Assembly: GCF_003344785.1 (NCBI RefSeq)
Contig: NZ_QPMK01000024.1
Location: 1-60,067, forward strand
Origin: Thalassococcus profundi
Lineage (GTDB): Bacteria > Pseudomonadota > Alphaproteobacteria > Rhodobacterales > Rhodobacteraceae
Direction: 5' to 3'
DNA: 60,067 nucleotides
A program made the translations under genes and the position numbers. Positions 5,549 through 52,851 of this stretch are shown one piece after another; position 1 is the first letter of the stretch; each line of letters begins with the position of its first letter. A model generated the notes under the pieces. That model saw only the letters and a list, made by a program, of their open reading frames with translations, did no database searches and was not told the origin of the DNA.

Positions 5549-5692
5549 CCGATCGGACCGGCCACGCGCTATGACAGGGTAACGACACGCGCAACGGAGC
5601 GAGCGCCCAACTCGCGGCGCTGATACGGGTAATAGAAATTATGTTAATTCAACGCGCATAATGCCACCCGCACACGACCAAGCCGAAGCGCC

Positions 5693-17031: not shown

Positions 17032-17034
17032 CGT

Positions 17035-18372: not shown

Positions 18373-18376
18373 GTCA

Positions 18377-19708: not shown

Positions 19709-19729
19709 GTTCGTCCTTCTGACGTGGTC

Positions 19730-20182: not shown

Positions 20183-20186
20183 CGTC

Positions 20187-21695
20187 TCAACTCCCTTTGT
20201 TTTCATAGGCATCTCTGAAATCGGCCCCGACATCTCCAAGGAACTGCTTTTCGGCCGATTGCGCAATGTCGCGGTAGCGGTCTTCGTAGATCTGCCACAA
20301 CTTCGCCTTGCGGCCCCCTGCGGCGAGGGATTCGAGCAGGCCGACGTCGGCCATCTCCTTTTCGATCTCCGCCGGGTCGAACTTGTCGACCATGCGCCGC
20401 AGCGCGATCTGCAGGGCGCTCCAGGTTCGGACCTGGTGGTCGGCCAGGTCGCGAAAGGCCGCCGGCACCGCCTGGTCGGGGGCGAGGTAGCCGCGCCCCC
20501 GCGGACGGATCAGCGCCGCAAGCGCGTCCTCGGGTGTGGCAAGGAACTTGAGAGGGTTCACATCGGCATTGGCGATGATGGTCTGGGCCACGCGGACCTT
20601 CTGCTTTTCCTGCGCACGGGTGCGCAACAGCAGCATCACCCCCTCGACGAGGTCGTGCAGGCACTGCCCGAGATGCGCCATTTCGGCGGCGGGATCCTCG
20701 GGCCGGGGCAGGCTTTCGGGGTCCAGACCCATGCCGCGCAGCAGTGCGTCGCGCAGGTCGCCGTCCTCGGCGGAGAGGGGCCGCGGCGCCGGTTTGGGCG
20801 CGGCCGCGTGGGCTGGCAGCACTTCCGGTTCGGGTTCGGGTTCGGGCGGCGCCGATTCCGGCAAGGGTTCGGGCGGCACCGGCGCGGGGTCCGGCGCCTC
20901 GAAAAGCGGCGCGTCGAACAGCGGTTTCTCCGCAGCAGGCGGCTCTTCCGGAGCCTCGGCGGGTAGTGGCCTCTCCGCGACCGGCTCGACCTTCCAGCTG
21001 TCGAAAATGTCCTTCTTGACCGGCGGCGCCTCGGGCTCGGGTTCCGGCGCGCGCGGTCTGGCCGCCTCCTCCTCTCGTGGCGTCGACGTGTCGAAATATC
21101 CGCCGCGCGACGGGCGGTCCGGCGCGGACTCGGACTCTTGCGATTGCGGGCGGCGCAGGTCGAGCCCGAACGGATCGGCCTGGTCCAGCGGTCGCGGGTT
21201 GCGCGCCACTTCCTTGTGCCGCTCGTCGGGTTTGCCGTCGCTGCGCAGGCCGAACGGGTCCGGCAGGTTCGCCGGGCGCGGCGCCACCGGCTCGGGCGGC
21301 GGGGCGGGCGGTTCGTCGGCAAAGAAGCCGCCGCGCGCCGCCGGGCCCGGTTTCGGTGCCTCCGTCCCAGGCGCTGCCCCCCGCGCGGCTTCGACGCGCA
21401 GCACGAAATCGCCCATGTGCAGCCGCATCCCCGGCTCTACCGGCACGGATTTGCCGGTGCCCACCGGGCTGGAGGCATTGTCGATGAAAAGCCCGCCGGA
21501 CGAGGCATCGGTCACCATGATGCGCCCGCCCTCCTCGCTCAGGATGCAGTGGCGGCGCGAGACATAGGCGCTCGGATCGTCGAGCTGCCAGTCGGCATCG
21601 TCGCCACGCCCGATGCTGAGCTGGCCGCCGGTGAACAGGTGTTCCGACACCGCCTGCGGCCCCGGCGCGGATTCGATGACAAGGCGCAGGGTCAT
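20187..21695 (-). CDS. tagH: T6SS FHA-domain protein TagH (Fha)
   Basis: 502 residues. The N-terminal FHA domain (about 1-105) shows the phosphothreonine-binding pattern: IGRGDDADWQLDD, SRRHC and GLFIDNAS. A long Pro/Glu-rich disordered linker (about 110-300) leads to the C-terminal TagH domain (about 305-500, DALLRGMGL ... DRYRDIAQSAEKQFL). In the threonine phosphorylation pathway PpkA phosphorylates the FHA protein, PppA reverses this and TagF represses it; all four are in this window. It overlaps tssG by four bases and precedes tssJ. Confidence 0.93.
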   Translation of the reverse strand: MTLRLVIESAPGPQAVSEHLFTGGQLSIGRGDDADWQLDDPSAYVSRRHCILSEEGGRIMVTDASSGGLFIDNASSPVGTGKSVPVEPGMRLHMGDFVLRVEAARGAAPGTEAPKPGPAARGGFFADEPPAPPPEPVAPRPANLPDPFGLRSDGKPDERHKEVARNPRPLDQADPFGLDLRRPQSQESESAPDRPSRGGYFDTSTPREEEAARPRAPEPEPEAPPVKKDIFDSWKVEPVAERPLPAEAPEEPPAAEKPLFDAPLFEAPDPAPVPPEPLPESAPPEPEPEPEVLPAHAAAPKPAPRPLSAEDGDLRDALLRGMGLDPESLPRPEDPAAEMAHLGQCLHDLVEGVMLLLRTRAQEKQKVRVAQTIIANADVNPLKFLATPEDALAALIRPRGRGYLAPDQAVPAAFRDLADHQVRTWSALQIALRRMVDKFDPAEIEKEMADVGLLESLAAGGRKAKLWQIYEDRYRDIAQSAEKQFLGDVGADFRDAYENKGS

Positions 21696-22738
21696 GCGGC
21701 ACTCCTTTCCGGCGGTCGTTCGGTGACATTGGCAAAGCTCAGGTCGTCGGCATCGCGCGCCGGATCGGGGTTGAGCCAGGTGGTGCGGCCCAGCTGGCAG
21801 GACCCAAGCCGCGCCGCGGGCACTTCGTCGGCGGCCAGGATCAGCCTCAGGCCGAAGGCGATATCCTTTCCGGCGGCAAAGACCAGCGCCTGCCGCAGCC
21901 GGTCCCGCGCGGCGGTGTCATCCAGAAAAGCGGTAAACTCCGCCAGCGTCAGCGGCCCCACCCGCAGTTCCGCATGGGCCTGCCGGTCGAAGACCCGGCC
22001 GCCGACCACGGCACCGGTGCCGAGACCGGCGTGCTGCATCCCCAACCGGCTTTGCAGGTGCTCCGGCAGGTCGATCCAGACACCCAGGTATTCCGTCAGC
22101 GCCACCGGCACGCCCAGCACCGTCTCCAGGAACGCGGTCAGCCGTTCGGGGCTGCGCGCCTCGAGCGCCAGCGACGTGGCATGGCGCAGTTTCGCCCCGT
22201 CGAGCCGTACGTCCCCGGTCGTGGTCCCCGGCAGCCCCAGCCCGGCGAGAGAGCGCATCATCGCCGTGACCCGCCCGCCGTCGCCATGGGCGATATGGAC
22301 CTCGGGCCGGGCGTCGGCCCAGGCCCGCCAGTAGAGCGCGATCATCCGGTGCTGCAGCATGTTGACGAAGTCGAGGAAGGAGGTGTCCGCGCTCGCCCCC
22401 TGGCTGTCTCCGGCGAACCAGCGGTTCGACAGGCGCTGCATGATCCAGCGCGTCATATGCAGAGGCATCGGGCCTTCCGGTCCGATCAGGCCCAGCACGT
22501 TGACGTTGATCTGCGGCGGCGCCTCGGCCGCGCCGGGCGTGACCTCGGCGACATCGCTGGCGGCGAAGGCCATGCGCGCGCTCTGGCCCAGACGCGCCGG
22601 TTCGCGCCCGGCTCCGCCCGCCCGGCCAAAGCGCAGCTCGGCGGTTTCGAGCTGGCGCAGCAGCTCGAAAAAATCCATGCCCGCGACTGCCGAGGGGTCG
22701 GTCAGATCAGGGCGCGTGTTCCGGGCGTCATCGGCCAT
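21692..22738 (-). CDS. tssG: T6SS baseplate protein TssG
   Basis: 348 residues from the ATG at 22736-22738, MADDARNTRPDLTDPSAVAGMDFFELLRQLE, which matches the usual TssG start. A longer frame to 23272 is only the antisense-like shadow of tssF and is not used. Conserved blocks include GLIGPEGPMPLHMT, FLDFVNMLQHRMIALYWRAW and the C-terminal LGSCQLGRTTWL. TssG joins two TssF copies in each baseplate wedge. It overlaps the 3' end of tssF by 37 bases, which implies translational coupling. Confidence 0.95.
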   Translation of the reverse strand: MADDARNTRPDLTDPSAVAGMDFFELLRQLETAELRFGRAGGAGREPARLGQSARMAFAASDVAEVTPGAAEAPPQINVNVLGLIGPEGPMPLHMTRWIMQRLSNRWFAGDSQGASADTSFLDFVNMLQHRMIALYWRAWADARPEVHIAHGDGGRVTAMMRSLAGLGLPGTTTGDVRLDGAKLRHATSLALEARSPERLTAFLETVLGVPVALTEYLGVWIDLPEHLQSRLGMQHAGLGTGAVVGGRVFDRQAHAELRVGPLTLAEFTAFLDDTAARDRLRQALVFAAGKDIAFGLRLILAADEVPAARLGSCQLGRTTWLNPDPARDADDLSFANVTERPPERSAA

Positions 22739-24579
22739 CGAACCTCCGTCTGGGCCTGGGTGAGCTGTGTGCGGGTGCAGACAAACGAATTGATCGCGGA
22801 ATGGCGCGCAAAGAGCCGCGCCAGAAGCGCCGAGAGCAGCAGCGCCGAGCCGCCGGACAGCAGCCCTTCGTTGATGTCGAGCGTGATTTCCGTGCCATGG
22901 CCAAAACACAGCGGCCCCGGCACTTGCAGCCGTTCGACCACCGGACGCGACCGCAGCCGCACGAGCGAAGCGCCGTGCCGCGCCAGCGCCGGGTCGCCGC
23001 GGTCGGCGTAGAGCTTGATGAGGGCGCGCAGCGGCTCGGCGCCAGCCTCGTCCCCGGCGAGCGAGATGTGGTTCAGCGACAGCTGCGAGATCCAGCGCCA
23101 GGTCAGGTCGTCGATGCGCCGCTCGTCCGTCGCACCCGAAGGCAGGCTGGCGCGCAGGCTGGCGCGCGGGCGTTTCACCGGCGACAGCAGCGTCACGGTC
23201 TGCACCGGATCGCCAGAGTCCAGCGTCAGCACCGGCATGTCGTCGAGGATCGGCAGGTCGCGGTTGGTGCAAAGTGCGCGCACGTCCAACCGCCGCAGCG
23301 GCGCCGCGGCACGCCGCTGGCTGGGTCGGCCCACAGAGATGTAGAAGTCGTCGCCGACATAGCTGCTGCGGGTCTGGCCGCGCCGGACCTCTTCGGTGTC
23401 GGGGCGGCGCGGACGGCGGTCGGCGGAATAGACATGGCCGCTGTCGGCCTGCGCTTCGGTCGAGAAGAGCGGCGTCACCCGCGCCTGCGGGCCCTCGTTT
23501 TCGGCATCTTCGACCCGCAACAGGCGGTAGATCTCAAAATCCCGCGGGCGGGTGCGGTCGGCCTGAACGATATGCGCGGCGCGGTTGGCGCGCAGTTCGA
23601 CGATGTTGCATTCGTGCTCGAACAAGTTGACCACCGGCGTCACGAAGAGCTGAAAGTCGGCGGCCGAGATGCTGGTCAGCTCGGGCCGTTCGCGGTCCAG
23701 CAGCACCACCAGTTCGACGTCATGGGTGCCGCTGGCGCGGATCACCGGCGACAACCCGTCGAGCCGCAGGAAATAGAACCGCTCGGGCATCAGGAAGTAT
23801 TCCCGGAGCAGGCGGTAGCCTTCGAAGGACGACCGGACCCGCGGCAGCAGCGCCTCGGCATCGTCGATGCCGACCATGGCGGGCGCGCCGACCCGCCGGA
23901 ATCGGGTGGTTGCGTCGGCCGGCCGCGCCACCGCCCCGGCGCCGAAACCGAACACCGCGTCGAAGATCGTACCACCACGGGTGCCGGCCCCGAAGTAGAG
24001 GTCGAGCCGGTCCAGCGACAGGTCCGCCAACGATCCCGCGCCCTGCCGCTTCAGCGCGATGCGAATGCCCGCCGCGGCCCCGCGCGCGGCGGGCTCTCCG
24101 ACGCCGGCCTGCGCCAGCGCGCCCTTGTCCTGCAGATAGCCGACCGCGCCGATCTGTACCGGCCAGAGGTGAACGGGCTGCGCGGTCGTGTAGGTGCAGC
24201 GGGTCTGCTGCCCTTCGCGCAGGCCCGACATCATCCGCGTGCCGCGCTTCATCACGTGGCCGTCGAACATGCGCTGTACCTGCGGCCCGGGCGTCATCGC
24301 CGCCATGGTCATCGCGGGCGCCGGGCCGGCAAGGTCGGGATACAGCGTGTCGATCAGGTTGCGGGTATAGCGGCTGGCCTCGCCATCGACCTTGAGCCGG
24401 GTCCGCGCGGCCAGAAAGGCGACGCCCTCCAGCAATCGCTCCACGTAAGGGTCCGGACAGGGGATCGCATCCATCGACAGGTTGCGCGCGACATTGGGAT
24501 GCAGCGCCGCGAATTCCTGCGCAAGCGAGCGGATATGCGACAGCTCCTCTTCGTAATATTCGAGAAACGCCTGGTCCAT
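22702..24579 (-). CDS. tssF: T6SS baseplate protein TssF
   Basis: 625 residues starting MDQAFLEYYEEELSHIRSLAQEFAALHP, the typical TssF opening, followed by PDPYVERLLEGVAFLAAR. Full length. TssF is the gp6-like baseplate wedge protein that recruits VgrG and contacts TssK. Its ATG shares its first base position with the tssE stop region, so tssE and tssF are translationally coupled. Confidence 0.96.
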   Translation of the reverse strand: MDQAFLEYYEEELSHIRSLAQEFAALHPNVARNLSMDAIPCPDPYVERLLEGVAFLAARTRLKVDGEASRYTRNLIDTLYPDLAGPAPAMTMAAMTPGPQVQRMFDGHVMKRGTRMMSGLREGQQTRCTYTTAQPVHLWPVQIGAVGYLQDKGALAQAGVGEPAARGAAAGIRIALKRQGAGSLADLSLDRLDLYFGAGTRGGTIFDAVFGFGAGAVARPADATTRFRRVGAPAMVGIDDAEALLPRVRSSFEGYRLLREYFLMPERFYFLRLDGLSPVIRASGTHDVELVVLLDRERPELTSISAADFQLFVTPVVNLFEHECNIVELRANRAAHIVQADRTRPRDFEIYRLLRVEDAENEGPQARVTPLFSTEAQADSGHVYSADRRPRRPDTEEVRRGQTRSSYVGDDFYISVGRPSQRRAAAPLRRLDVRALCTNRDLPILDDMPVLTLDSGDPVQTVTLLSPVKRPRASLRASLPSGATDERRIDDLTWRWISQLSLNHISLAGDEAGAEPLRALIKLYADRGDPALARHGASLVRLRSRPVVERLQVPGPLCFGHGTEITLDINEGLLSGGSALLLSALLARLFARHSAINSFVCTRTQLTQAQTEVRWPMTPGTRALI

Positions 24580-25328
24580 CAGCGCACCTCCAGCGCGGTC
24601 ATGGCCTGACCGTTGTCGAGGTCGATGCTGGTCGACAGGCGCAGCCGCTCGGGCACCGGCGACAGCAGCAGGACCCCGTCGATGTCGATGCGCAGCCCGG
24701 TCTTTTCGCCGCTGCGCACGCGCACCTTGACGCTCTCCTTCTTCAACCGCGGCTCGTAGATGTTCAGCACCGCCTTGATCTCGCGGGCAAGATCGTCCTT
24801 GTCGAAATCCGATCCCATGCGCCCGGAAAAGGACGGCACGCCGTAGTTGAGCACTGAGGCGCGCACCTCGGGGAAGTCGGCCAGCTGGCTGGTCGGGTCC
24901 GGGTGGTCCAGGGCTTCGCGGTCGCTGAGCAGGAACTTCGCCTCCATACGTTCGATGTTGAACAGCATTTCGATGTCGCGGCGCACCGCCTCGCGCAGCA
25001 CGTCGGCGGTCACGATCACGCCGCTCTCCTCGAGCCTGCGGCGCCGCGTGGTAAGCTGCACCACCCGATGCGCCAGCTGCCGCGTGTCGGGCGACAGATC
25101 CTCGCGCCGTTCGATGGCACGAGCGCCGCCCGCGATGAGCGCGGCGGCGTCCTCTTCGGCATCGGCCCGGTCGCTGCCGGCCTCGGCCATGATCTCGGTC
25201 ACCAGATCGCGGCGCAGCGCGTCGGATTCGGCGACCAGACCCGGCAGGTCGTCGACCAGCCTGTCCCAGAGAGACGGCTGGACGGCTTCCTGCCGGGACA
25301 CGGAGGGGGCATTGGTGCGGTCAGTCAC
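24579..25328 (-). CDS. tssE: T6SS baseplate protein TssE with N-terminal extension
   Basis: 249 residues. The C-terminal 150 residues carry the gp25-like fold (VLREAVRRDIEMLFNIER, DFPEVRASVLNYGVPSFSG, YEPRLKKESVKVRV). Most TssE proteins are 130-180 residues; the extra N-terminal 80-90 residues are charged and alanine-rich, probably helical. They may contact neighbouring baseplate proteins or be a lineage feature. TssE nucleates sheath polymerisation on the baseplate. Confidence 0.93.
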   Translation of the reverse strand: MTDRTNAPSVSRQEAVQPSLWDRLVDDLPGLVAESDALRRDLVTEIMAEAGSDRADAEEDAAALIAGGARAIERREDLSPDTRQLAHRVVQLTTRRRRLEESGVIVTADVLREAVRRDIEMLFNIERMEAKFLLSDREALDHPDPTSQLADFPEVRASVLNYGVPSFSGRMGSDFDKDDLAREIKAVLNIYEPRLKKESVKVRVRSGEKTGLRIDIDGVLLLSPVPERLRLSTSIDLDNGQAMTALEVR

Positions 25329-25354
25329 AGATCAATGCCCCGCCCCTGCGATCC

Positions 25355-25843
25355 TCAGACACCCGCGGCGATGTCGTAGCTGATCTCGTGCTCGTCGCCC
25401 GCCGAGTGGTCATCGGCCTGCACGACGTATTTCACGGTGACGTTCTCGAACACGAGGCCAAGCGCCTCTTCCATGATCTCGCCGCCCTCGACATCCCCGA
25501 TCCCGAGGATCTCGGATTTCGAGATGGTGACGTTCTCCATGGTGATGATCAGGTAGTCGAGATGCGCGTCACCGCTGTCCTTGCGGACCGACAGGATCAT
25601 GTCCGGGAAGGACTTGCCCTGCATACAGGCCAGTTGAAGGTACGGGGTCGAGGCGTCGACGAACTTCTTGAGCATCAGGGCGCCGACCTGGGCGCGGGCG
25701 CGCGACCGGCCCTTGCCGACCTGCGCGGCCGACCCCTGTTCGATGTTCCACATGATGTCGTGGATGTCGATCTCGTCTTCGTGCTCGGTACGCTGCGATT
25801 CACCGGCGATGTCGCCGATCTTGAGATATCCGGTTAATGGCAT
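25355..25843 (-). CDS. hcp: T6SS inner-tube protein Hcp (TssD)
   Basis: 162 residues, MPLTGYLKIGDIAGESQRTEHEDEIDI, with the standard Hcp features EIDIHDIMWNIEQG and LTITMENVTISKSE-like strands. The ATG follows a strong AAAGGAGACC ribosome site, fitting the high expression expected of the tube subunit. No C-terminal toxin extension is present. It sits 32 bases after tssC inside the main leftward operon. Confidence 0.96.
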   Translation of the reverse strand: MPLTGYLKIGDIAGESQRTEHEDEIDIHDIMWNIEQGSAAQVGKGRSRARAQVGALMLKKFVDASTPYLQLACMQGKSFPDMILSVRKDSGDAHLDYLIITMENVTISKSEILGIGDVEGGEIMEEALGLVFENVTVKYVVQADDHSAGDEHEISYDIAAGV

Positions 25844-25875
25844 TTGGTGGTCTCCTTTTGGTTAAATAAATTCTC

Positions 25876-27384
25876 TTACGATTTCACCGAGGGTAGTTCC
25901 GACACCAGCCGCAGGGACGCGTTGATCCCCTCAAGCTGGTAGTGCGGGCGGAGGAAGAACCGGGCGTTGTAATATCCGGGCCGTCCTTCAACGCTGTCCA
26001 CCTGCACTTCTGCGGCGGCCAGCGGTCGTTTGGCCTTGGCCTTGTCGTCGGCCATGGCGGGGTTGGCGAGAACGTAGCGGTTGATCCACTCGCTCAACCA
26101 GACCTGCATGTCGGCACGTTCCTTGAACGTCCCGACCTTGTCCCGCGCGATCGCCTTGAGGTAATGGGCAAAGCGGCTGACGGGGAAGAGATACGGCAGG
26201 TTCGCGGACAGCCGCTCGTTCGCCTGCGCATCCGGGTCGACCAGCCGGCCGGCGCGGGTTTCGTCGTCCTGCAGGCTGTGGGCGCCGATGAAGGCGGCGA
26301 CGTCGGTGTTCTTGCGGTGCAGGATCGGCATCATGCCGAGCTTGGCCAGCTCTGCCTCGCGCCGGTCGTCGATGGCGATCTCGGTGGGACATTTCATCGC
26401 CACGCTGCCGTCGTCGGTCGGGAAGGTATGCACCGGCAGGTTCATCACCGTGCCGCCCGATTCCACGCCCCGGATCTGCGTCCCCCAGCCGGAAATCTTG
26501 TGGCTGCGATTGATGTTCACGCCCATCGCAAAAGCCGCGTTCATCCAGACGTAGTTCTCGTGGTTGCCCTCGATCTCTTCCTCGAAATCGAAGCCCTTGA
26601 CCGGCACCGTCTCGGCGCCGTAGGGCAGCCGTCCCAGCACGCGCGGCATGGTCAGACCGATATAGCGCGCATCCTCGCTTTCGCGCAGCGACTGCCACGA
26701 GGCATAGTCGGGGCTGCTGACGATCTGTTCGAGGTCCTGCGGGTTGGGCAGTTCCGACCAGCTTTCCATGCGGAAGAGCTGCGGCGCGGCGGCGGCGATG
26801 AACGGCGCATGCGCGGCGGCGCAGATACCGCTGAGGTTGCGCAGCATGCCCACGTCCTTGGGCTTGTGACTGAACTCGTAGGCGCCGACGATGGCGCCGA
26901 AGGGTTCGCCCCCGAACATGGAATACTCGTCGCTGTAGATCTTCTTGAAGATCGGCGACTGGTCCCACATCTGGCCCTCGTAATCCTCGAGATGATCGGC
27001 CAGTTCGTCCTTCTTGACGTTCAGCACCCGGATCTTGAGCTTCTGATCCGTTTCGGTGTTGTTGACGAGGTAATGCAGCCCGCGCCAGGTGCCTTCGATC
27101 TGGCGCACCTCGGGGGCATGCAGGATCTCGTTCATCTGCTTGGTCAGGATCTGGTCGATCCCGGCGATCAGCGACTTGATCGACTTGACCGCATTGCCGG
27201 AAATGGCCGCGGTTCCGGCTTTTTCCTGCGCGGCCAGCGCCAGGTTGGCGACCAGCGCCTGAAGCTTCTCGCCTTCGGAATCCTTGACCCGGAAATCCTT
27301 TTCCAGCAGTTCGCTGAATTCACCGAGATCAAGCGCTTCGGCTTCCGCGGCGCCGCCGGCGGCCTGCTTTTCCTGTTCAGCCAT
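25876..27384 (-). CDS. tssC: T6SS contractile sheath large subunit TssC
   Basis: 502 residues with the conserved TssC landmarks: EILHAPEVRQIEGTWRGLHYLV, PFGAIVGAYEFSH, AAHAPFIAAAAP, PRVLGRLPYG, MKCPTEIAIDDRREAELAKLG and the C-terminal NARFFLRPHYQLEGINASLRLV. With TssB it forms the sheath that contracts to propel the Hcp tube. It starts 3 bases after tssB. Confidence 0.97.
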   Translation of the reverse strand: MAEQEKQAAGGAAEAEALDLGEFSELLEKDFRVKDSEGEKLQALVANLALAAQEKAGTAAISGNAVKSIKSLIAGIDQILTKQMNEILHAPEVRQIEGTWRGLHYLVNNTETDQKLKIRVLNVKKDELADHLEDYEGQMWDQSPIFKKIYSDEYSMFGGEPFGAIVGAYEFSHKPKDVGMLRNLSGICAAAHAPFIAAAAPQLFRMESWSELPNPQDLEQIVSSPDYASWQSLRESEDARYIGLTMPRVLGRLPYGAETVPVKGFDFEEEIEGNHENYVWMNAAFAMGVNINRSHKISGWGTQIRGVESGGTVMNLPVHTFPTDDGSVAMKCPTEIAIDDRREAELAKLGMMPILHRKNTDVAAFIGAHSLQDDETRAGRLVDPDAQANERLSANLPYLFPVSRFAHYLKAIARDKVGTFKERADMQVWLSEWINRYVLANPAMADDKAKAKRPLAAAEVQVDSVEGRPGYYNARFFLRPHYQLEGINASLRLVSELPSVKS

Positions 27385-27387
27385 CCA

Positions 27388-27921
27388 TCAATCCTCCTTC
27401 TTGGTGGCGGCCATCGCCTGTTCGGCGGCCTGGGCCAGCAGCGGCTGGTTGGTCAGCAGCTGCGCGATGCGCTTCTCGGCATCGACCTTGCCGTCCATGT
27501 ATCCCAGCAGTTCCTCGAGCTGCTTGCGCATGGTCAGCAGTTCCGCCAGCGCGGGCACCTGTTCGGCCACCTTGTCGGGGGCGAAATCCGACATGCTCTT
27601 GAACGACAGGTCGACGAAAAGCTCTTCCTCGGCCTCTTCGCCCTCGGCGGTCGGCAGGGTGTTCTTGACCCGCGTCTTCACGCGCGGCGACAGCGCCTCC
27701 ATGAACTTGGAGAAGCGGCCCGCATCGGTTTCGACGAAGGTCCGGTCGTTGATCGGCTTCTGGGCTTCCTTGGTCTCGGACGCCCCGGCAAGATCGGCCA
27801 TCACGCCCATCACGAAGGGCAGTTCGATCGTGGTGGGGCTGCCGTAATGCTCCACGTCATAGGCGATCTGCACGCGCGGCGCGCGGTTTCGTTCGATGAC
27901 CTTCTGCTTGCTGTCACTCAT
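27388..27921 (-). CDS. tssB: T6SS contractile sheath small subunit TssB
   Basis: 177 residues. Conserved blocks RAPRVQIAYDVEHYG, LPFVMGVMADLAG and the C-terminal helix (ALAELLTMRKQLEELLGYMDG) identify it. The helix around the end of the protein is where ClpV recognition normally depends on exposed sheath elements. It precedes tssC by 3 bases and follows tssA by 34 bases. Confidence 0.97.
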   Translation of the reverse strand: MSDSKQKVIERNRAPRVQIAYDVEHYGSPTTIELPFVMGVMADLAGASETKEAQKPINDRTFVETDAGRFSKFMEALSPRVKTRVKNTLPTAEGEEAEEELFVDLSFKSMSDFAPDKVAEQVPALAELLTMRKQLEELLGYMDGKVDAEKRIAQLLTNQPLLAQAAEQAMAATKKED

Positions 27922-27955: not shown

Positions 27956-29095
27956 TCATTTCTTCTTGCCCTCTTCCACGCCCGCGATATTGCGGAATTC
28001 CTTCAGACCCGAGGGCGCGATCTCTTCCATCAATTCGAGAAAATCCATTTTCACCATCCGCCGCATCCGCCGCGCGAGATGCGGGATCGGGCTGCTGGGT
28101 TCGGTGCGTTCGTAAAAGCCGATGATGCGCTCCAGCGCCGCCTCGACATCCTCGCGCGAGGCAACCGTCCCGGGCGGGGCGGCAGCGGCGGCCGTCGACG
28201 GGGCGGGCGCGGCACCGTTTGCCGCGGCGGGCGCAGGGGCCGCGGGGTTGTCCTCCACCGGCGCCGCATTCGCCGCCGAAGCGCCCACGGCCTTTTCCAG
28301 CGTCTGGCGGCACAGTCCCAGGAATTCGGTCAGCTCGGTCAGCGCGAGGCCCGGCTGGCTGCCAAAGCCGCCCTTCTCGTTCACCGCAGAGACCAGCGCC
28401 GCGATCGCCGTATCGCAGGCCGTGAGGCCGGCGATCATCTCCGCGGCGCGGTCGGGTTCTTCCGTGGCCATGGCGCGGGCGGCGGCGGTGACGCGGTTGA
28501 CCCGTTGGCCATGCGCGGCGACCAGCGAATCCTTTTCGGCCTGGCTCAGACCCGACGCGGCCCTGTTGAGCATCTCGAAATCGCTCAGCACCGCCGCGGC
28601 CAGGTCGTCGCCGGTAATCGGCCCGATCCCGCGCGGGTTCAGCATCATCCCGAAGCGCAGGTCGCAGAGCAAGCCGTCGTCGTCGTTCTCGAGCTGCTTG
28701 ATCGCGTTCAGCCGCGGCAGCGCCGCCATCTTGGCGTCGTCGCGGTCGCGCAGCGCCGGGTGCAGGCTGTCCCAATATTGCTCCACGCTGCCGGTCAGAA
28801 CCGACAGACCCTCGGCGAGGCCCGCAAACCCGTTCAGGTTGTAATTCGCGCGCACAAGGATCGTGAGCAGCCGCAGGTCGCGGCCCTGGTCGGCCAGGTC
28901 GTGACCCTGATCCAGCAGCCCCTGCCAGTCCACATTCGGCACTGCCTCGGCCACGGATCCGTCTGAATTCAGCCGGTTGGACCGCGCGGCGGGATCCATC
29001 ATGCGCTCCAAGGCATGGAACTGCGCGTCGTTGCGCAGTTCGTCACCCGATGGCGAATCGTCACGAATGCTGGTCAGGAGGCGATCAATGTCCAT
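27956..29095 (-). CDS. tssA: T6SS cap/baseplate-assembly protein TssA (ImpA-type N-terminus)
   Basis: 379 residues. The N-terminal ImpA-related domain is clear: SPSGDELRNDAQFHALE, DWQGLLDQGHDLADQGRDLRLLTILVRA, GSVEQYWDSLHP. A long Ala/Pro linker (about 285-320) leads to a C-terminal segment with EDVEAALERIIGFYERTEPSSPIPHLARR, typical of short TssA proteins. TssA starts and caps the growing tail. It is the first gene of the leftward tss operon, so the promoter for tssA to tagF should lie in 29096-29223. Confidence 0.95.
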   Translation of the reverse strand: MDIDRLLTSIRDDSPSGDELRNDAQFHALERMMDPAARSNRLNSDGSVAEAVPNVDWQGLLDQGHDLADQGRDLRLLTILVRANYNLNGFAGLAEGLSVLTGSVEQYWDSLHPALRDRDDAKMAALPRLNAIKQLENDDDGLLCDLRFGMMLNPRGIGPITGDDLAAAVLSDFEMLNRAASGLSQAEKDSLVAAHGQRVNRVTAAARAMATEEPDRAAEMIAGLTACDTAIAALVSAVNEKGGFGSQPGLALTELTEFLGLCRQTLEKAVGASAANAAPVEDNPAAPAPAAANGAAPAPSTAAAAAPPGTVASREDVEAALERIIGFYERTEPSSPIPHLARRMRRMVKMDFLELMEEIAPSGLKEFRNIAGVEEGKKK

Positions 29096-29223: not shown

Positions 29224-30861
29224 CTAGGGCGGCGCGGGGCCGGTCTTTACGAAAAGGTAAACCCATTCGCCGCGAAACGACGGATCGGCGGCGCGCGCGT
29301 CGGCGATCCGCGCCTGCATCTCGGCGAGGTACGGCAGCGCCGGTTCCACGAGCGGCCTGTCCCCTTCGTAGAGCGGTTGGCTGGCGGCAAAGGCCACGGC
29401 GATATCCTGGCCGAACGGCGGCGCGATCCGCAGGTCGAGGTCATCGCCGCGCCCCACCGACACCGTTTCCGCCGGAGCCAGACGGCGCAGGGGACGGCGG
29501 GCGTTGGGCACGAGATGCAGCACCTGACCACTCGCGTCAAAGTAATCCACGTAGACGTAGGCGGGGTAGTCCGGCGCGGTCAGGTCGATGGTCAGGCGGT
29601 CGCCTTCGTCGAAGGCATATTCCCGCACCTGCGCGTGTTCGCCGACAAGATCGCTGTCGGTCAGCTGTTCTTCGGATTGCGGCAGGCCCATCGCGGCGAT
29701 GCCGTCCAGCAGGGCGCATTGCGGGCGCGGCAGGATTTGCAGCGCATCGCGCAGCGGCAGAGCGGTTCCGACTTGCGCTTGCAGGGTTTCCAGCAGCGGC
29801 GCGCGCGCAGCCGCCTCCGGCACGTGGCCGCGCAACTCCAGCGCGCCGGTGTCAGGGTCGAAGACCGTGTGCACCCGCGCGCAGTCCGGCGCCGCCATCG
29901 CCGCTGCCATGCGGTCGCGCTGCTCCTGCCCCGCCGCTTGTCCCGGCAACAGAAACGCCTCCAGCGTGGCGAGGCTCTGCGCATCGAGGCTGACACGCCC
30001 CGCACCGCTCCACGCGAGCCCCGCCGTCACGACCGCACCGCCGGAGGCCAGCGCGGAGGCCTGCCGCGCCTGCGGCGCGCGGGCGGACAACGGCACCGGA
30101 GCGAGTGCCATTGCAGCGGCGTCTGCTCCGACCGGGGTTTCGGCCGCTACCGGCGGCGGTGTGGGTTCGGCGCGGACCCGTGCGGCAGATGGCGCATCGG
30201 CCGCGATCGGTGCCGCGTCGGCCAGCCGGGCCGACAGGACCGCGCCGACTGCTGCGACGGACATCGCCTTGACGGGCTGGGCGGGCACAGCTTCGGCGGT
30301 GTCCTGGCGCGCCGCGATGGCGGGTTGCGCCGCGGGGACGGTCCGCGCCACCACGACCCGCGCGGCGCTGGCCTGTACAGCGTCGTCCGCTGCCATCGCC
30401 CGCATCTGGTCCGGCTGGGCGGCAACGGCCTTCACCGGTTGCGCCCGCACCTCCCCCGCCCTCGCAGCAGACGGGGCAAGCGCCGCGGTCGTAGCGGCCT
30501 CGGGACGCAGCGCCGCGACCGGCGCGACCGGATCGGTCCGGGCGGACAGGACCGCGCCCGACGCGGGCAAGGCCGTCACCGCATCGGCGTTCGGGCTTTG
30601 CACCGGGGCGCGGCGCACCGGCACGGCCTGCCCCGGCATCCGCGCGCCGCTGGCCTCGGCCCGGGCCGCCTGTTCGACCTCCGGCTCCTGTGGCACCGCC
30701 CGGTCGCGCGGCACCGCCATCGTGGCCAGCATCACCCGGGTGTCGCCGCCGCCCTGTTGTGGCACCGTCCGCGGCGCCAGCCAGGGCAGCAGCGCAAGCC
30801 CCGCGCCCACGTGCAGCGCCAGCGATGCGGCGACTGCCAGACCGCCCCGCGCGACGCTCAT
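29224..30861 (-). CDS. TonB-like membrane protein with Ala/Pro-rich spacer and DUF4384-like C-terminal domain
   Basis: 545 residues. One N-terminal signal-anchor helix (about 8-28, LAVAASLALHVGAGLALLPWL) is followed by about 280 residues of Ala/Pro/Val-rich periplasmic spacer, then a small BON-like region (CARVHTVFDPDTGALELRGHVPEAA) and a DUF4384-like beta domain (YVYVDYFDASGQVLHLVPNARRPLRRL, about 450-545). The classic TonB C-terminal domain is not seen. The same two-part ending occurs in the kinase PpkA of this locus (SLWVMVVDNTGKVFHVLPNINR). It is last in a coupled exbB-exbD-exbD operon, so it is probably the proton-motor-driven arm; its target may be a T6SS component and not a TonB-dependent receptor. 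That is inference. Confidence 0.72.
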   Translation of the reverse strand: MSVARGGLAVAASLALHVGAGLALLPWLAPRTVPQQGGGDTRVMLATMAVPRDRAVPQEPEVEQAARAEASGARMPGQAVPVRRAPVQSPNADAVTALPASGAVLSARTDPVAPVAALRPEAATTAALAPSAARAGEVRAQPVKAVAAQPDQMRAMAADDAVQASAARVVVARTVPAAQPAIAARQDTAEAVPAQPVKAMSVAAVGAVLSARLADAAPIAADAPSAARVRAEPTPPPVAAETPVGADAAAMALAPVPLSARAPQARQASALASGGAVVTAGLAWSGAGRVSLDAQSLATLEAFLLPGQAAGQEQRDRMAAAMAAPDCARVHTVFDPDTGALELRGHVPEAAARAPLLETLQAQVGTALPLRDALQILPRPQCALLDGIAAMGLPQSEEQLTDSDLVGEHAQVREYAFDEGDRLTIDLTAPDYPAYVYVDYFDASGQVLHLVPNARRPLRRLAPAETVSVGRGDDLDLRIAPPFGQDIAVAFAASQPLYEGDRPLVEPALPYLAEMQARIADARAADPSFRGEWVYLFVKTGPAPP

Positions 30862-31259
30862 GGCCCGGACGGGGTGACCACGATCACCACCTCCCCGAGC
30901 GCCGCCGCCTCGAGTGCCGACACCAAGGGCATCAGGTGGCGCATGGCGACGTCGCGGTGGGCGTTGATACGGATCAGGCGCGCCGCGTCCCGCGCCGCCG
31001 CCGCCTCGATCTGCGCCAGCCAGTCATCGCCCACCGCATCCCCGTTCACCGCGAGCGCGCCGTCGCGTGCCACCGACAGGGTGACGCCGCCGCCCGGCAT
31101 GTCCTGTCCCGAGACGGCGATCGGCGGCACCACTTCGAACGGCGCCGAGGCGTCGAACCGCGCGACCAGCAGGAAGAACACCAGCAGGAAGAACACCACG
31201 TCGACCAGCGCGATGATCGGCTCTGCCGGAGGCCGGTGATCGGCGCGGCGCAGCCTCAT
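30858..31259 (-). CDS. exbD: ExbD/TolR-family motor protein (second copy)
   Basis: 133 residues with one N-terminal membrane helix (IIALVDVVFFLLVFFLLVARF) that keeps the essential proton-carrying Asp (residue 20) and a periplasmic ExbD domain. It overlaps the previous exbD and the following TonB-like gene by four bases each (ATGA type), so the whole cassette is translationally coupled. ExbD/TolR dimers sit inside the ExbB/TolQ pentamer and convert proton flow into movement. Confidence 0.88.
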   Translation of the reverse strand: MRLRRADHRPPAEPIIALVDVVFFLLVFFLLVARFDASAPFEVVPPIAVSGQDMPGGGVTLSVARDGALAVNGDAVGDDWLAQIEAAAARDAARLIRINAHRDVAMRHLMPLVSALEAAALGEVVIVVTPSGP

Positions 31260-31663
31260 GCGCCGTCCTCCAGCCGCACCAGCCGCGCATCGCCGACCCC
31301 CGCCGCCGCGACAGCGTCCATGACCTGCGTCAGCGCCCAGAGCGGCGCCGCACCCGTCGGCAGGATCAGCACCCGGGGCGCGCCGGACAGGGCCGCCGTC
31401 AACCCGGCGGGCGTCAGTGCCTGCCCGCGCAGCACCACCTCTCCGCCGGCGCCGATCCGCAAGAGCAGCGTGCCGCCCGCCACAGCGCCGCCGTCCACTT
31501 GCGCCGCTCCGGCCATCGGATCGCCGCCCCGCACCACCGGGATCATGTCGAGATCGCGGTAGACCGAGGTGACCATGAAATAGACCAGCAGGATGAACAG
31601 CACGTCGATCAGCGGCACCAGCGTTACGCGTCGCCGCACCGTCGCGGGCCGCGCCAGCCTCAC
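31256..31663 (-). CDS. exbD: ExbD/TolR-family motor protein (first copy)
   Basis: 135 residues. The membrane helix VPLIDVLFILLVYFMV has the conserved Asp at residue 20. The two ExbD proteins in this cassette are clearly different from each other (the periplasmic parts share little), so they may form a heterodimer in one motor, as described for some two-ExbD systems. Four-base overlaps join it to exbB upstream and exbD downstream. Confidence 0.88.
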   Translation of the reverse strand: MRLARPATVRRRVTLVPLIDVLFILLVYFMVTSVYRDLDMIPVVRGGDPMAGAAQVDGGAVAGGTLLLRIGAGGEVVLRGQALTPAGLTAALSGAPRVLILPTGAAPLWALTQVMDAVAAAGVGDARLVRLEDGA

Positions 31664-32286
31664 GGCGTGTCCTCGCCGCCGCGCAGCCCGCGCGCGAGGG
31701 TCACGCGACCAATGAGGCGCTCCATTTCGGAGGTACCGGCTTCGACCCGCGCCTGCAGGATCGCTGCGCCGACGACTGCGGGAATCGCCACCACCAGCCC
31801 GGCTGCGGTGGTCAGCAGCGCCTGCCAGATACCGCCCGCCAGGATCGCGGCATTGGCCGACCCCTCGGCAAGTTCCAGCGAGCGGAACGACTGGATCATG
31901 CCCAGCACCGTGCCCAGCAGGCCCAGCAGTGGCGCGATCATGCCCACCAGTTCCAGCAGCCGGATGCCGCGCCCCATCGCCGCCACTTCGGCATTGCCCA
32001 ACTGCTGCAGATCCGCGGCCAGCAGAGGCGCAGGCACCTTCCGCCGCAGCAAATCTCCGGCCCGCAGCGCGACCCGCCCCGCCGGCGCGCGGTTGTCACC
32101 GGGCGGGTCGGGCCAGCCCTGACCGGATTCGATCGCATGCAGCCAGTCGGCGCGCGCCCCCTGCCCCGCGCTCAGCCCGCGCAGCGCCAGAAGCCGCGCC
32201 ACGAAAACCGACAAGGACACTACCGACAGCACGGCCAGCACCAGCAGGACGGGCCCCGCGCTCCCCAGTTCATCGAGACCGATCAT
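31660..32286 (-). CDS. exbB: ExbB/TolQ/MotA-family proton channel
   Basis: 208 residues with three membrane helices: about 10-30, 110-135 and 155-180. The functional Thr-containing motifs are present: GMIAPLLGLLGTVLGMIQSF and ALLTTAAGLVVAIPA. The size fits ExbB/TolQ and not MotA. No TolA, TolB, Pal or TonB-dependent receptor gene is nearby. It starts 3 bases after the small secreted protein and is coupled to exbD. Confidence 0.9.
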   Translation of the reverse strand: MIGLDELGSAGPVLLVLAVLSVVSLSVFVARLLALRGLSAGQGARADWLHAIESGQGWPDPPGDNRAPAGRVALRAGDLLRRKVPAPLLAADLQQLGNAEVAAMGRGIRLLELVGMIAPLLGLLGTVLGMIQSFRSLELAEGSANAAILAGGIWQALLTTAAGLVVAIPAVVGAAILQARVEAGTSEMERLIGRVTLARGLRGGEDTP

Positions 32287-32289
32287 GGC

Positions 32290-32706
32290 CTATTTCACCA
32301 GTGGTGTGGCCGCCTTGCTTTGCAGCGCCAGCACGGCAAAGCAGTCCATCTCCTCGCCGTTTTGCGGACGGCAGGCCGAGATGTCGTGCAGCAGGATTTC
32401 CGAGATGCCGTCACAGGCGATGCCGGGAAATTCGAACAGCTTCAGCGTTGTTCGCTCCAGCGGCAGCGGGGCCGCATCGACGGTCAGCAGCTGGTCGATG
32501 ACGCCGCCGGTGTCGAGGATCGCAAGCGACAGTTCGAATGCCGCGAGCGTGCGGCCCAGATCGTTGCGGAAGAGGAAAAAGGCACGGCAGGTGCCGGCGT
32601 CACCGGCTTCGAGCTTGTTGAGTTCGACGGTCAGGCCGCCGTCCTGCGCCTGCGCGGGTCCCGACAGGGCAAGCGCGGCCAACACGGCCAGGGGGAATCG
32701 TTTCAA
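32290..32706 (-). CDS. Small secreted four-cysteine protein leading the exb cassette
   Basis: About 138 residues if it starts at the TTG 32704-32706. That start is chosen because AAAAGGAG lies just upstream and the protein then opens straight into a signal peptide (LKRFPLAVLAALALSGPAQAQ as read). A longer frame to 32883 gives an implausible Arg-rich leader. The mature part has four cysteines (in GTCRAFF, IACDGI, SACRP, MDCFAV), suggesting two disulfides in the periplasm. I do not recognise the family. Its position as first gene of the ExbB-ExbD-ExbD-TonB-like operon suggests a periplasmic partner of that motor. Confidence 0.72.
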   Translation of the reverse strand: MKRFPLAVLAALALSGPAQAQDGGLTVELNKLEAGDAGTCRAFFLFRNDLGRTLAAFELSLAILDTGGVIDQLLTVDAAPLPLERTTLKLFEFPGIACDGISEILLHDISACRPQNGEEMDCFAVLALQSKAATPLVK

Positions 32707-32834: not shown

Positions 32835-32863
32835 TTGGTGAATCGACGGCGCCGTGAAATACT
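32835..32863 (+). promoter_or_regulatory. Candidate sigma-70 promoter for the DUF6484 gene
   Basis: TTGGTG (32835-32840), a 17-base spacer, then AATACT (32858-32863). Predicted start of transcription is near 32870, about 30 bases before the ATG at 32901. Only moderate consensus match. Confidence 0.35.
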
Positions 32864-32900
32864 GCATCCATTGGTTGAAGCACATTGCGGAGTGACGGAC

Positions 32901-38069: not shown

Positions 38070-40820
38070 TCACGCAAACTCATAGCCGAAGCCCTCCGCC
38101 CCGCCGGTCACCGTCACGCGGCCGAGGTCCCTGCCCTCCAGCCGCCAGCTCAGGATTCGGCGGCTGAGCTCGGGCATCAGCGTGTTTGTGAGGATCGCGT
38201 CGATCATCCGGCCGCCGCTTTCGATCTCGGTGCAACGGTCCTTGATCACCTGCATGGCGCCGTCGCCGATCACCAACTCGGCGCCGTAGCCTTCGCCCAG
38301 CCGTTTGGCGAGGCTGCGCAGCTTGTGGCCCGCGATCGCCTCGATCATCGTATCCGACAGCGGGTAATAGGGGATCGTCACCACCCGCCCCAGAAGCGCC
38401 GCCGGAAAGACGTCGAGCAGCGGCTTGCGCAGCGCGGCGTTCAGTTCCTCGGCATCGGCGGCGACCTTGCCGTCCTCGGTCATCGCCATGATCTCGTCAG
38501 AGCCGACATTCGAGGTCAGCAGGATCAGTGTGTTCTTGAAGTCGATCCGCCGGCCTTCGCTGTCGTCCATCATGCCCTTGTCGAAGACCTGGAAAAAGAT
38601 TTCGTGCACATCCGAATGGGCCTTTTCCACCTCGTCCAGCAGGACGACGGAATAGGGCCGCCGCCGCACCGCTTCGGTCAGGATGCCGCCCTTGCCGTAG
38701 CCCACGTATCCCGGCGGCGCGCCCTTCAGCGTGCTGACCGTATGCGCCTCCTGAAACTCGCTCATATTGATCGAGATGAGGTTGTCCTCGCCGCCGTACA
38801 TGAGTTCTGCCAGCGCCAGCGCGGTTTCGGTCTTGCCGACGCCGGACGGGCCGCAAAGCATGAAGACGCCCACCGGTTTCTCGGGCGGCTTGAGCCCCGC
38901 CGCAGAGGTCTGGATGCGGTTCGCGATCATTTCCATCGCGTGATCCTGACCGACCACACGCTCGGCCAGGGTCTGGGCCAGCGACAGCGCGCGCTCGGTC
39001 TGGCTGGCCAGCATCCGGCCCATGGGAATGCCGGTCCAGTCCTGCACCACGGCGCCCACCGCCAGCCGGTCGACCGAGGGCAGGATCAGCGGCGTTTCGC
39101 CCTGCGCCATCGCCAGCTCGGCCATCTGCGCCTTGAGCCGCGTCAGAGTCGCGTCGCGGTCGAAAGGCTCTGTTTCCCCCTCATCGGTGACTTCCATCTC
39201 CGGCGCGCCTTCGGCTTCGGCCATCTCCTCGACCGCCTCGGCATCGGCATCGCCCAGATCGCCGGTGTCGTCCACCGCCGCCCCGAGTCCGCGCAACTGC
39301 GCCCGCAGGTCCAGGATCTCGTCCACCAGGACCTTCTCCGCATCCCAGCGCGCCGCCGCCGCCTCCATCGCCGCCGAGGCTTCGGCGAGACCCGCCTGCA
39401 CCGCCGCCTTGCGCTCTTCGACCTCGATGCCGATGGCTTCCTCGCGCGAAATGATACCGTCCTCGATCTCCAGCGCATCGAGCCGGCGCTGGATGTCCTC
39501 GACCTCCGCGGGCGTCGCATGCTGGCTGACCGCGACCCGCGCGCAGGCGGTGTCCAGGAGGCTGATCGCCTTGTCGGGCAGTTGCCGCGACGGAATATAG
39601 CGATGCGACAGCTTCACCGCCGCCTCGATCGCCTCGTCCAGCAGTTCGACCTTGTGATGTTTCTCGAGCACCCCCGCGACGCCCCGGCACATGAGAATGG
39701 CCTTGGCCTCGTCCGGTTCCTCGACCTTGACCACCTGGAACCGGCGGGTCAGGGCCGGATCAGGTTCGATATGCTGCTTGTATTCGGCCCAGGTCGTGGC
39801 CGCGATGGTGCGCAACTCGCCCCGCGCCAGCGCCGGTTTCAGCAGGTTCGCCGCGTCGCCGGTTCCGGCCGCGCCCCCTGCCCCGATCAGCGTATGCGCC
39901 TCGTCGATGAACAGGATGATCGGCACGTCGCTCGACTGCACCTCGTCGATCACCGCCTTCAGACGCTTCTCGAACTCGCCCTTCACGCTAGCCCCGGCCT
40001 GCATCAGCCCGATGTCGAGCATGTGCAGGTGCACGTTCGCCAGTTGCGGCGGCACGTCGCCCTTGGCCAAACGCTGGGCAAAGCCCTCGACCACCGCCGT
40101 CTTGCCCACCCCGGCCTCGCCGGTGAGGATCGGGTTGTTCTGCTTGCGCCGCATCAGGATGTCGACGATCTGGCGGATCTCGGGGTCGCGCCCCACCACC
40201 GGGTCCATCTTGCCGGACTTCGCCCGCTCAGTCAGGTCGGTGGCATATTGCTCCAGCGCCGACTTGCCGCCGGGCTTGGCCTTGGCCCCCTTCGGCGCCT
40301 CCTCGGCCACCGAGTCGCCGCTGCGCTCGATCGACGCCGCCAGAAGGTTGTCGAGGTCGGCGATCATCGCATCCGGGTCGAACTTGTCGAATTCGAGACT
40401 GATCTTGAACAGCAGCCCCTCGAGCACCGGCACCTTCAGCGCCGCGAGGATCACATAGGCAGACCGCACGGAATCGTCGCCGTAGTCGAAGGATCCGAAG
40501 TTCCAGCCTTCCTGGATCGCGCGGAAGATGTGGTCGGAAAACTCTTCGACCGACCCCGCACCATGCGGGAGCGCATCGGTGGCCTTGAGCACGTCGCCGT
40601 CGAACCTGTGCCGGTCGACCCCAGCCGCCTGCATCAAGAGCGCCAGGTCGGACCCTTCGGTATCGGCCAGCGCGGTGATGAAATGCACCAGTTCCACATA
40701 GGGATTGCCGCGCCGCTTCGCCGCCTGGGCCGCCCCGGAAAAAGCCTTGAGGCAGACCGGGTTCAGCTTGCCAACCAGTTCCTTGCGCTTGATGGTTTCG
40801 GTCGATCCGCGTGTCGCCAT
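38070..40820 (-). CDS. tssH: T6SS sheath-recycling AAA+ ATPase ClpV (TssH)
   Basis: About 916 residues from ATG 40818-40820 (GGAGGG upstream). An N-terminal domain (VKLNPVCLKAFSGAAQAAKRRGNPYVELVHF in outline) precedes two AAA+ modules: Walker A GEAGVGKT with FIDEAHTLIG, and GPSGVGKT with LLDEVEKAHSDV. The middle coiled coil has an unusual acidic insert (DDTGDLGDADAEAVEEMAEAEGAP region). ClpV unfolds contracted TssB/TssC sheath. It heads the effector operon and is divergent from ppkA, separated from the main tss operon by 9 kb. Confidence 0.96.
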   Translation of the reverse strand: MATRGSTETIKRKELVGKLNPVCLKAFSGAAQAAKRRGNPYVELVHFITALADTEGSDLALLMQAAGVDRHRFDGDVLKATDALPHGAGSVEEFSDHIFRAIQEGWNFGSFDYGDDSVRSAYVILAALKVPVLEGLLFKISLEFDKFDPDAMIADLDNLLAASIERSGDSVAEEAPKGAKAKPGGKSALEQYATDLTERAKSGKMDPVVGRDPEIRQIVDILMRRKQNNPILTGEAGVGKTAVVEGFAQRLAKGDVPPQLANVHLHMLDIGLMQAGASVKGEFEKRLKAVIDEVQSSDVPIILFIDEAHTLIGAGGAAGTGDAANLLKPALARGELRTIAATTWAEYKQHIEPDPALTRRFQVVKVEEPDEAKAILMCRGVAGVLEKHHKVELLDEAIEAAVKLSHRYIPSRQLPDKAISLLDTACARVAVSQHATPAEVEDIQRRLDALEIEDGIISREEAIGIEVEERKAAVQAGLAEASAAMEAAAARWDAEKVLVDEILDLRAQLRGLGAAVDDTGDLGDADAEAVEEMAEAEGAPEMEVTDEGETEPFDRDATLTRLKAQMAELAMAQGETPLILPSVDRLAVGAVVQDWTGIPMGRMLASQTERALSLAQTLAERVVGQDHAMEMIANRIQTSAAGLKPPEKPVGVFMLCGPSGVGKTETALALAELMYGGEDNLISINMSEFQEAHTVSTLKGAPPGYVGYGKGGILTEAVRRRPYSVVLLDEVEKAHSDVHEIFFQVFDKGMMDDSEGRRIDFKNTLILLTSNVGSDEIMAMTEDGKVAADAEELNAALRKPLLDVFPAALLGRVVTIPYYPLSDTMIEAIAGHKLRSLAKRLGEGYGAELVIGDGAMQVIKDRCTEIESGGRMIDAILTNTLMPELSRRILSWRLEGRDLGRVTVTGGAEGFGYEFA

Positions 40821-40955
40821 CTGCGGCACCCTCCAAAATATATTGTTGTCACCGAAAGCCGGTGGAATAATCAAATCGAGTTATTCCCGTATGATAGTCC
40901 GGTTTCGATTTGGAATCGACAGTTTTGATAGGCCCACGGGCAGAGAGGGTTTTCG
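40821..40955. promoter_or_regulatory. Divergent clpV-ppkA control region with two inverted repeats
   Basis: The 135-base gap between two divergent T6SS genes is AT-rich compared with its surroundings. It holds GAATAA-N10-TTATTC (40865-40886) and TCGATT-TGG-AATCGA (40905-40919). The left repeat includes GAATAATCAAATCGAG, which matches the tssA leader at 13 of 16 positions. TATGAT at 40890-40895 could be a rightward -10. A common regulator of the two operons is plausible but unproven. Confidence 0.45.
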
Positions 40956-43049
<2,094 letters not shown>

Positions 43050-50313: not shown

Positions 50314-50415
50314 GTTTGTTGAACGACGACCATTCCGGCCCACATCTTCCCCGGCTCTTCACGCGTTTTCCAGCGTGAAAAGGCAATAAAAAGTCGTCCA
50401 CCGAATCGGTGACTC

Positions 50416-52721: not shown

Positions 52722-52851
52722 GTTCTGCCGCCTCTCGTGGCCTTTGCTAAGGCTCTTTGTCGTTCTGACGGTCGAAGCCACGTCTGACGCGTTTTGCCGT
52801 CAGAAAGGAAATGCCACGAACGTGTGAGTCCGGCAAGAAGAATCTAAATAT

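Follow-up and report, generated by a model that had tools for sequence, protein, structure and literature searches.

Why should a type VI secretion system (T6SS) locus contain what looks like the energizing part of an iron-uptake system? The question is raised by a cassette of five genes on a contig of Thalassococcus profundi (NZ_QPMK01000024.1, assembly GCF_003344785.1), all 60,067 nucleotides of which were analyzed and are referred to here as the window. The genes are predicted to encode a secreted four-cysteine protein, an ExbB, two different ExbDs and a TonB-like arm whose tip shares homology with the periplasmic module of PpkA, a T6SS kinase. An arm ending in a copy of the kinase's periplasmic domain is most simply explained as a proton-driven input to that kinase, and we hold, with slightly better than even confidence, that the cassette is a proton-powered input to the PpkA-Fha switch. 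The case for a role of the proton-motive force is built on homology, gene linkage and co-divergence.

The five genes lie on the minus strand (29224-32706) in the order four-cysteine protein, ExbB, ExbD1, ExbD2, arm, just as the original prediction had described them, and the ExbB and both ExbDs were recognized by Pfam. Overlaps of four bases join exbB to exbD1, exbD1 to exbD2 and exbD2 to the arm gene, and the four-cysteine gene stops 3 bases before exbB. In profile comparisons with the PDB, the window ExbB matched ExbB (E 3.9e-12) and TolQ (5.4e-9) over the channel region, and ExbD2 matched the ExbD structure 6tyi (0.0083). The aspartate taken to carry protons, Asp20, was invariant in 30 of 30 rows (15 per ExbD type; 15 cassettes were sampled from the family's 29 complete ones), consistent with proton flow through ExbB/ExbD. 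The four-cysteine protein had no match in Pfam or NCBIfam and no PDB relative by profile comparison; its Cys40, 98, 112 and 122 were invariant in all 29 aligned rows.

The arm was predicted to be TonB-like and to lack the TonB C-terminal domain. Indeed, TonB_C and TonB_2 were absent from the window arm (Pfam, E ≤ 1), and DUF4384 was found instead at residues 417-496 (1.2e-11, above cut-off), together with a BON_like match (0.0023) below cut-off. A profile match of the tip to YscD (E 1e-4) agrees with a BON-type first half. The membrane helix carries SxxxH, the motif through which the stems of TonB and TolA engage ExbB/ExbD. To count this motif, arms were taken from the named loci, which are the best 80 of the 156 matching stretches found by scanning 84,980 species genomes; these gave 78 arms, of which 7 truncated ones were set aside. 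SxxxH was present in 69 of the 71 full-length arms of the window type (arm1), the remaining 2 having SxxxN, and in 10 of 13 arms of a second T6SS lineage (arm2). As a control, it occurred in 8 of the 918 non-arm open reading frames (ORFs) with a transmembrane-like stretch in the same loci.

That the arm ends in a module also carried by PpkA was supported by profile-profile comparison. An alignment of 66 arm tips without kinases (A8) matched an alignment of the PpkA periplasmic part (A7, 8 rows) with E 4.4e-10 and probability 96.7 over 192 columns, which spanned both the cysteine-pair/BON-like part and DUF4384. The two C-terminal regions, whose folds might have proved different, are homologous by this measure. 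An earlier arm-tip alignment that included one kinase row from locus L068 (A1) gave E 1.7e-11 against A7, and blastp between the window arm and PpkA alone gave 1e-4. A kinase of genome G122, adjoining matches to tssM and tagF and a gene read by eye as a PP2C phosphatase, was 38% identical to the window arm tip over 223 residues (E 5e-45).

Locus L068 itself encodes a T6SS kinase (4207-6237, plus strand) with a periplasmic module far closer to the arm tip than that of the window-type kinase PpkA1, and is a possible donor type. A blastp screen with full-length PpkA missed this kinase (its kinase domain matches at 2e-59), and the counts of kinases per locus may be too low. Beyond the family, A1 matched four other genomes of the class (147 searched in all); the strong matches, in G344 and G424, were of kinase type by eye, that of G344 degenerate, and those in G337 and G296 were weak. 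Three matches were found on Azospirillum plasmids, and the one opened was a kinase in a T6SS locus. Proteins of the caspase family are annotated near a T6SS kinase on Pseudosulfitobacter and Azospirillum plasmids (L332 1588-3486; L333 1-1811).

A matched arm and kinase were also found in the second lineage, where the module of arm2 matched that of PpkA2 with E 2.7e-21 in profile-profile comparison and arm2 lay tail to tail with ppkA2 in 10 of the 13 arm2 loci. Across the lineages the modules were not detectably alike (A1/A5 0.04, A6/A7 0.017, A5/A7 0.17, with unrelated profiles giving 0.03-0.65). An invariant pair of cysteines, 52-59 residues apart, was present in all four modules.

The distribution of the arms was determined in 295 genomes drawn evenly from the family. 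The arm1 search matched 34 genomes, and the matches in G162 and G122 were rejected as kinases, leaving 32 arm1 genomes; arm2 was found in 18 others (E below 1e-50), in each case downstream of a same-strand four-cysteine gene a few kb away. TssC was found in 72 of the 295 genomes, and arm1 or arm2 in 50 of these 72 and in 0 of the 223 without TssC (Fisher 1.4e-39; genomes not independent). Far from being placed mostly away from T6SS genes, arm1 lay close to TssC: where one contig carried both (25 genomes), the distance was below 11 kb in all but one (2.9-10.7 kb in 24 genomes, 747 kb in G093); in the remaining 7 arm1 genomes the two were on separate contigs. Weak second TssC-like matches were also seen in many family genomes, within open frames often of more than 1000 residues (e.g. 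G128:C9:120037).

Of the 32 arm1 loci, the window and 28 others have all five genes intact, and the remaining three are truncated by a contig start. All five were present in 73 of the 80 named loci, and the arrangement is therefore not due to chance; the remaining 7 are truncated, their arm ORFs extending past the start of the contig. All but three of the named loci are from organisms that, going by their names, we take to be Rhodobacterales, and the three are labeled only "bacterium" or "alphaproteobacterium". Core tss genes were found in flanks of up to 10 kb in 68 of the 80; five further loci without core tss genes carry an M15 peptidase gene, four of them also ppkA, and in L096, L103, L112 and L145, where no core tss gene was found, the locus sequence ends early. 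By this stable linkage and by its co-occurrence with tss genes, the cassette is tied to the T6SS. Among plasmid records, 28 matched the arm protein, some of the matches being kinases, and plasmid pDSM107133_a of Pseudosulfitobacter carries a T6SS locus of the same layout under a RefSeq-type annotation that names the genes singly.

Arm and kinase also corresponded in type. All 32 arm1 genomes had PpkA1 (E ≤ 1e-62) and not one had PpkA2; among the 18 arm2 genomes, 16 had PpkA2, and the two lacking it are 73% and 71% complete. Arm2 was less than 2 kb from PpkA2 in 13 of the 18, in some of these far from TssC. Across 27 arm1 genomes, arm and PpkA distances were correlated given those of TssC (partial r 0.69; p 0.0005, the lowest value that 2000 permutations can give), and the corresponding values were 0.38 (0.028) for the four-cysteine protein, 0.22 (0.089) for ExbB and 0.14 (0.19) for ExbD1. 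With the window lineage and G083 removed (24 genomes), they were 0.70 (0.0005) for the arm, 0.38 (0.016) for the four-cysteine protein, 0.32 (0.0075) for ExbB and 0.19 (0.14) for ExbD1.

Several observations weigh against an input dedicated to the kinase. The correlation of ExbD2 with PpkA was nearly equal to that of the arm (0.60, p 0.0005; 0.50, p 0.0005, in the 24 genomes), and DUF4384 is found in unrelated proteins too. Five of the seven sampled genomes of the window's T6SS lineage, as defined by a TssC tree, had no arm (G088 and G009, 99% complete, and G118, G068 and G022, 84, 76 and 85% complete). G088, G009, G118 and G068 keep PpkA1 with its module and have a tssA region free of the cassette; in G088 the clpV match begins about 205 bases after the tssA match, and an effector block is absent too. 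Since close relatives with no cassette have retained the same T6SS and its PpkA, the cassette is dispensable in evolution, an option for the T6SS and not a necessity. Further, among the 22 genomes with TssC and neither arm, 8 had PpkA1 and 5 had PpkA2 (E ≤ 3e-24), and the kinase module can therefore stand without an arm. PpkA1 is present as well in three of the arm2 genomes (G026, G175, G240); in G175 more than 1.5 Mb separates tssC from the arm2-PpkA2 pair, and in G026 the pair is on another contig. In three named loci with a complete cassette (L084, L086, L119), the flanks available show no core T6SS gene. Finally, according to the accessible text of PMC12607579, PpkA activates the T6SS constitutively in species without TagQRST, and an input would perhaps be unneeded there.

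The relation of the cassette to a TonB operon was evident within the same genome. A paralogous cys-exbB-exbD-exbD set on contig C10 ends in a protein with TonB_2 and TonB_C matches (7.1e-9 and 4.1e-6), adjoins ABC-transporter genes of siderophore type by eye, and has a TonB-dependent receptor about 4 kb away; the four-cysteine proteins of the two operons are 31% identical. Because this paralogous operon ends in a true TonB, the T6SS cassette is probably a TonB energizer that was co-opted and given a new tip. The four-cysteine family, present in 36 of the 385 genomes of a class-wide sample, is alphaproteobacterial and often precedes exbB-exbD-exbD. Arms beside non-T6SS Exb sets near four-cysteine genes had TonB_C or TonB_2 in 7 of the 8 scanned, and Pfam gave no match for the remaining one, a 217-residue ORF of L190. 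At many other loci the four-cysteine gene stands without detected Exb genes (L187, L197-L202 and others), and a lone copy lies beside clpV in a T6SS genome (L221 7718, plus strand).

A tree of 51 ExbB rows set the 16 of the window type apart by one branch (99/99) and the 14 of the second T6SS type by another (100/100); the TonB-type rows fell outside both and did not themselves form one clade. A single origin of the two T6SS cassette lineages was neither shown nor rejected (p-AU 0.52, approximately unbiased test). This tree is unrooted, and the direction of change is presumed to be from TonB to T6SS cassette because the TonB form is the more widespread.

Under the proposal of a kinase input, the cassette would be a proton-motive-force motor of the ExbBD/TolQR class dedicated to the T6SS and derived from a cys-exbB-exbD-exbD-tonB iron-uptake operon, in which the TonB tip was replaced by the periplasmic module of a PpkA-type T6SS kinase. 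ExbB and the ExbD1/ExbD2 pair would pass protons and drive the arm through its SxxxH helix. The tip of the arm may pair with the matching module of PpkA, or may compete with PpkA for one envelope ligand. Proton-driven movement of the arm would then alter PpkA dimerisation, and with it Fha phosphorylation and T6SS assembly, such contact and its effect on phosphorylation being predictions from sequence. The secreted four-cysteine protein could assist the motor in the periplasm; members of its family are found with ordinary TonB operons too. A more specific version, which we put forward tentatively and at distinctly less than even confidence, is a mechanochemical kinase switch: a TonB-derived motor with an arm bearing a duplicate of the kinase's sensor domain, by which the proton gradient would load or unload the T6SS kinase and so confine assembly of the weapon to cells with an intact, energised envelope, arm tip and kinase having been matched independently in two T6SS lineages.

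The main rival to a kinase input, which we regard as unlikely, is a motor acting on the envelope in the manner of TolA, pulling or remodelling peptidoglycan or outer membrane for T6SS assembly or firing, with the ligand of the tip merely also sensed by PpkA. Such a role would fit the likeness to the trans-envelope Ton system, the nearness of tssA, which in 65 of the 80 named loci starts no more than 3.5 kb from the cassette, and the presence in the cluster of OmpA-domain and M15 peptidase genes, though in the window these are about 22 kb from the cassette. It would not account for the tracking of kinase type by tip type, nor for the tail-to-tail placement of arm2 and ppkA2, and relatives have the same T6SS genes without the cassette. 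More improbable still is that a generic envelope-binding module was acquired twice by chance and that the job of the cassette is unrelated to PpkA. DUF4384 is mentioned for caspase-like proteins of other bacteria, and the PpkA module is kept in relatives that have no arm, but in two lineages the arm matches its own kinase and not detectably that of the other lineage, and both the 32/32 and 16/18 concordance of arm and kinase and their partial correlation speak against coincidence. Very improbable, finally, is a T6SS-linked nutrient uptake in which the arm energises an outer-membrane receptor importing metal or siderophore delivered via T6SS-secreted proteins. All upstream parts are indeed common to TonB operons and a review on T6SS in metal transport exists (PMC8602904), yet the arm has no TonB C-terminal domain, its tip is homologous to the kinase module, and the contig encodes no receptor barrel.

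The cassette both resembles and differs from the closest known systems. With the alphaproteobacterial cys-exbB-exbD-exbD-tonB form of TonB-ExbB-ExbD it has in common the gene order, the two ExbDs, the ExbB channel, the SxxxH stem and the secreted cysteine family, whereas its tip is a kinase-type module in place of TonB_C and it adjoins tss genes with no linked receptor. Consistent with the prediction that no TonB-dependent receptor is near, no receptor barrel (PF00593) was found on the window contig (C17), and the three in the genome lie on contigs C8, C10 and C13. With TolQRA-Pal it has in common subunits of the ExbB/TolQ and ExbD/TolR families and a trans-periplasmic arm, but apart from the motor pair the operon contains no tol genes: tolA, tolB and pal are absent, and it ends with the DUF4384 arm, followed by tssA. 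A set resembling ybgC-tolQ-tolR (gene names by eye) is found elsewhere in the genome, on contig C7. ZorAB of Zorya is a MotA/ExbB-family motor in another bacterial conflict system, and the ZorA2 match in NCBIfam (0.043) was far below cut-off.

To our knowledge, no Ton/Tol-type proton motor was previously known in a T6SS, nor such a motor acting on a kinase. If correct, the proposal would provide the first of each, and the proton gradient would help decide the timing of T6SS weapon assembly. Of the TssC-positive genomes sampled from one family, 50 of 72 have this candidate PpkA input, and its role is accessible to deletion genetics in marine bacteria that can be cultured, Leisingera among them.

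Proton motors as such are already known in secretion systems. The type IX secretion system uses the proton motor GldLM, as described in the accessible part of PMC8986121; both are proton-driven motors serving a secretion machine, and they differ in machine and arm, GldLM supplying torque for secretion and gliding and the cassette a proposed kinase input. Periplasmic partners of PpkA are described in the accessible parts of PMC6082577 and PMC12607579, namely TagQRST in Pseudomonas, RtkS in Serratia and TssW in Acidovorax. These meet PpkA periplasmically, as proposed for the arm, and are described there without a proton motor. TagQRST is given as restricted to Pseudomonas (PMC6082577, accessible part), and PpkA control beyond a few model species as poorly understood (PMC6082577, PMC12607579, likewise). 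A literature search on T6SS with ExbB, ExbD, TonB-like proteins, DUF4384 or proton motors (titles and abstracts, with few subscription papers and preprints covered) found no description of the cassette or of this tip in a T6SS, and no paper combining "type VI secretion" and "DUF4384". The accessible part of a paper on T6SSs in squid symbiosis (PMC9515649) had no match to exb, TolR, TonB or PpkA, and that of a paper on plasmid T6SSs (PMC9113992) none to exb or TonB.

Table. Positions in the window of the cassette, the parts of its arm and the T6SS genes around it.
Feature	Position	Strand	Evidence or remark
Secreted four-cysteine protein, 138 aa	32290..32706	-	Most likely TTG start at 32706, our own reading from a signal-like start, in line with the end coordinate of the original prediction
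ExbB-type proton-channel subunit, 208 aa	31660..32286	-	Pfam MotA_ExbB 1.6e-27
ExbD1, 135 aa, GTG start	31256..31663	-	Pfam ExbD 4.1e-11; Asp20
ExbD2, 133 aa	30858..31259	-	Pfam ExbD 1.1e-16; Asp20
Arm, 545 aa: one N-terminal transmembrane helix, Ala/Pro-rich stem, Cys-pair/BON-like and DUF4384 tip	29224..30861	-	
Arm transmembrane helix, SxxxH at residues 13-17	30787..30843	-	TonB-type stem motif
Arm tip, residues 285-545; invariant Cys327 and Cys382	29227..30009	-	AlphaFold2 model, mean pLDDT (predicted local distance difference test) 91
tssA, next gene downstream of the arm	27956..29095	-	ImpA_N 5.6e-29
T6SS core: tssM, tssL (with OmpA domain), tssK, tssJ, fha, tssG, tssF, tssE, hcp, tssC, tssB	13492..27921	-	
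FHA protein (T6SS_FHA_C), expected PpkA target	20187..21695	-	
PppA-type PP2C phosphatase	6499..7257	+	Sole PP2C_2 match in genome
DUF6484 gene flanking the cassette	32835-33323		
clpV/tssH	38070..40874	-	NCBIfam VI_ClpV1
PpkA: Ser/Thr kinase, transmembrane helix at about residue 298, periplasmic module	40956..43049	+	Pfam Pkinase 5.6e-34

The window contains a full T6SS locus, with vgrG and tagF besides the core, tssA, clpV, PpkA and the phosphatase. The kinase, the PP2C phosphatase and the FHA protein of the PpkA-PppA-Fha threonine phosphorylation pathway (TPP) are all present in it. The predicted flanks of the cassette were found as expected, with tssA on one side and, on the other, the DUF6484 gene with a PAAR-like toxin gene beyond. 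The block between cassette and clpV (33693-38058, minus strand) comprises the PAAR-like gene, which has a GHH2 nuclease-type toxin domain, and DUF2169, ketoacyl-synthase-like and propeller-like genes; like the cassette, it was not found in G088.

An M15 gene resembling D-Ala-D-Ala carboxypeptidases (7261-8145, plus strand) directly follows pppA. Beside vgrG is another IcmF/TssM-like gene (8149-10590, plus strand), the start of which is weakly DotU-like. Genes for RepC, RepB and RepA/ParA lie at 49258-50343, 50554-51537 and 51522-52781 on the minus strand. The window is a whole contig with repABC genes, and the T6SS is therefore probably carried on a repABC plasmid. Near the contig ends are a ShlB-type two-partner secretion gene (53462-55210, plus strand) and a gene for an MBG-repeat protein (96-2222, plus strand).

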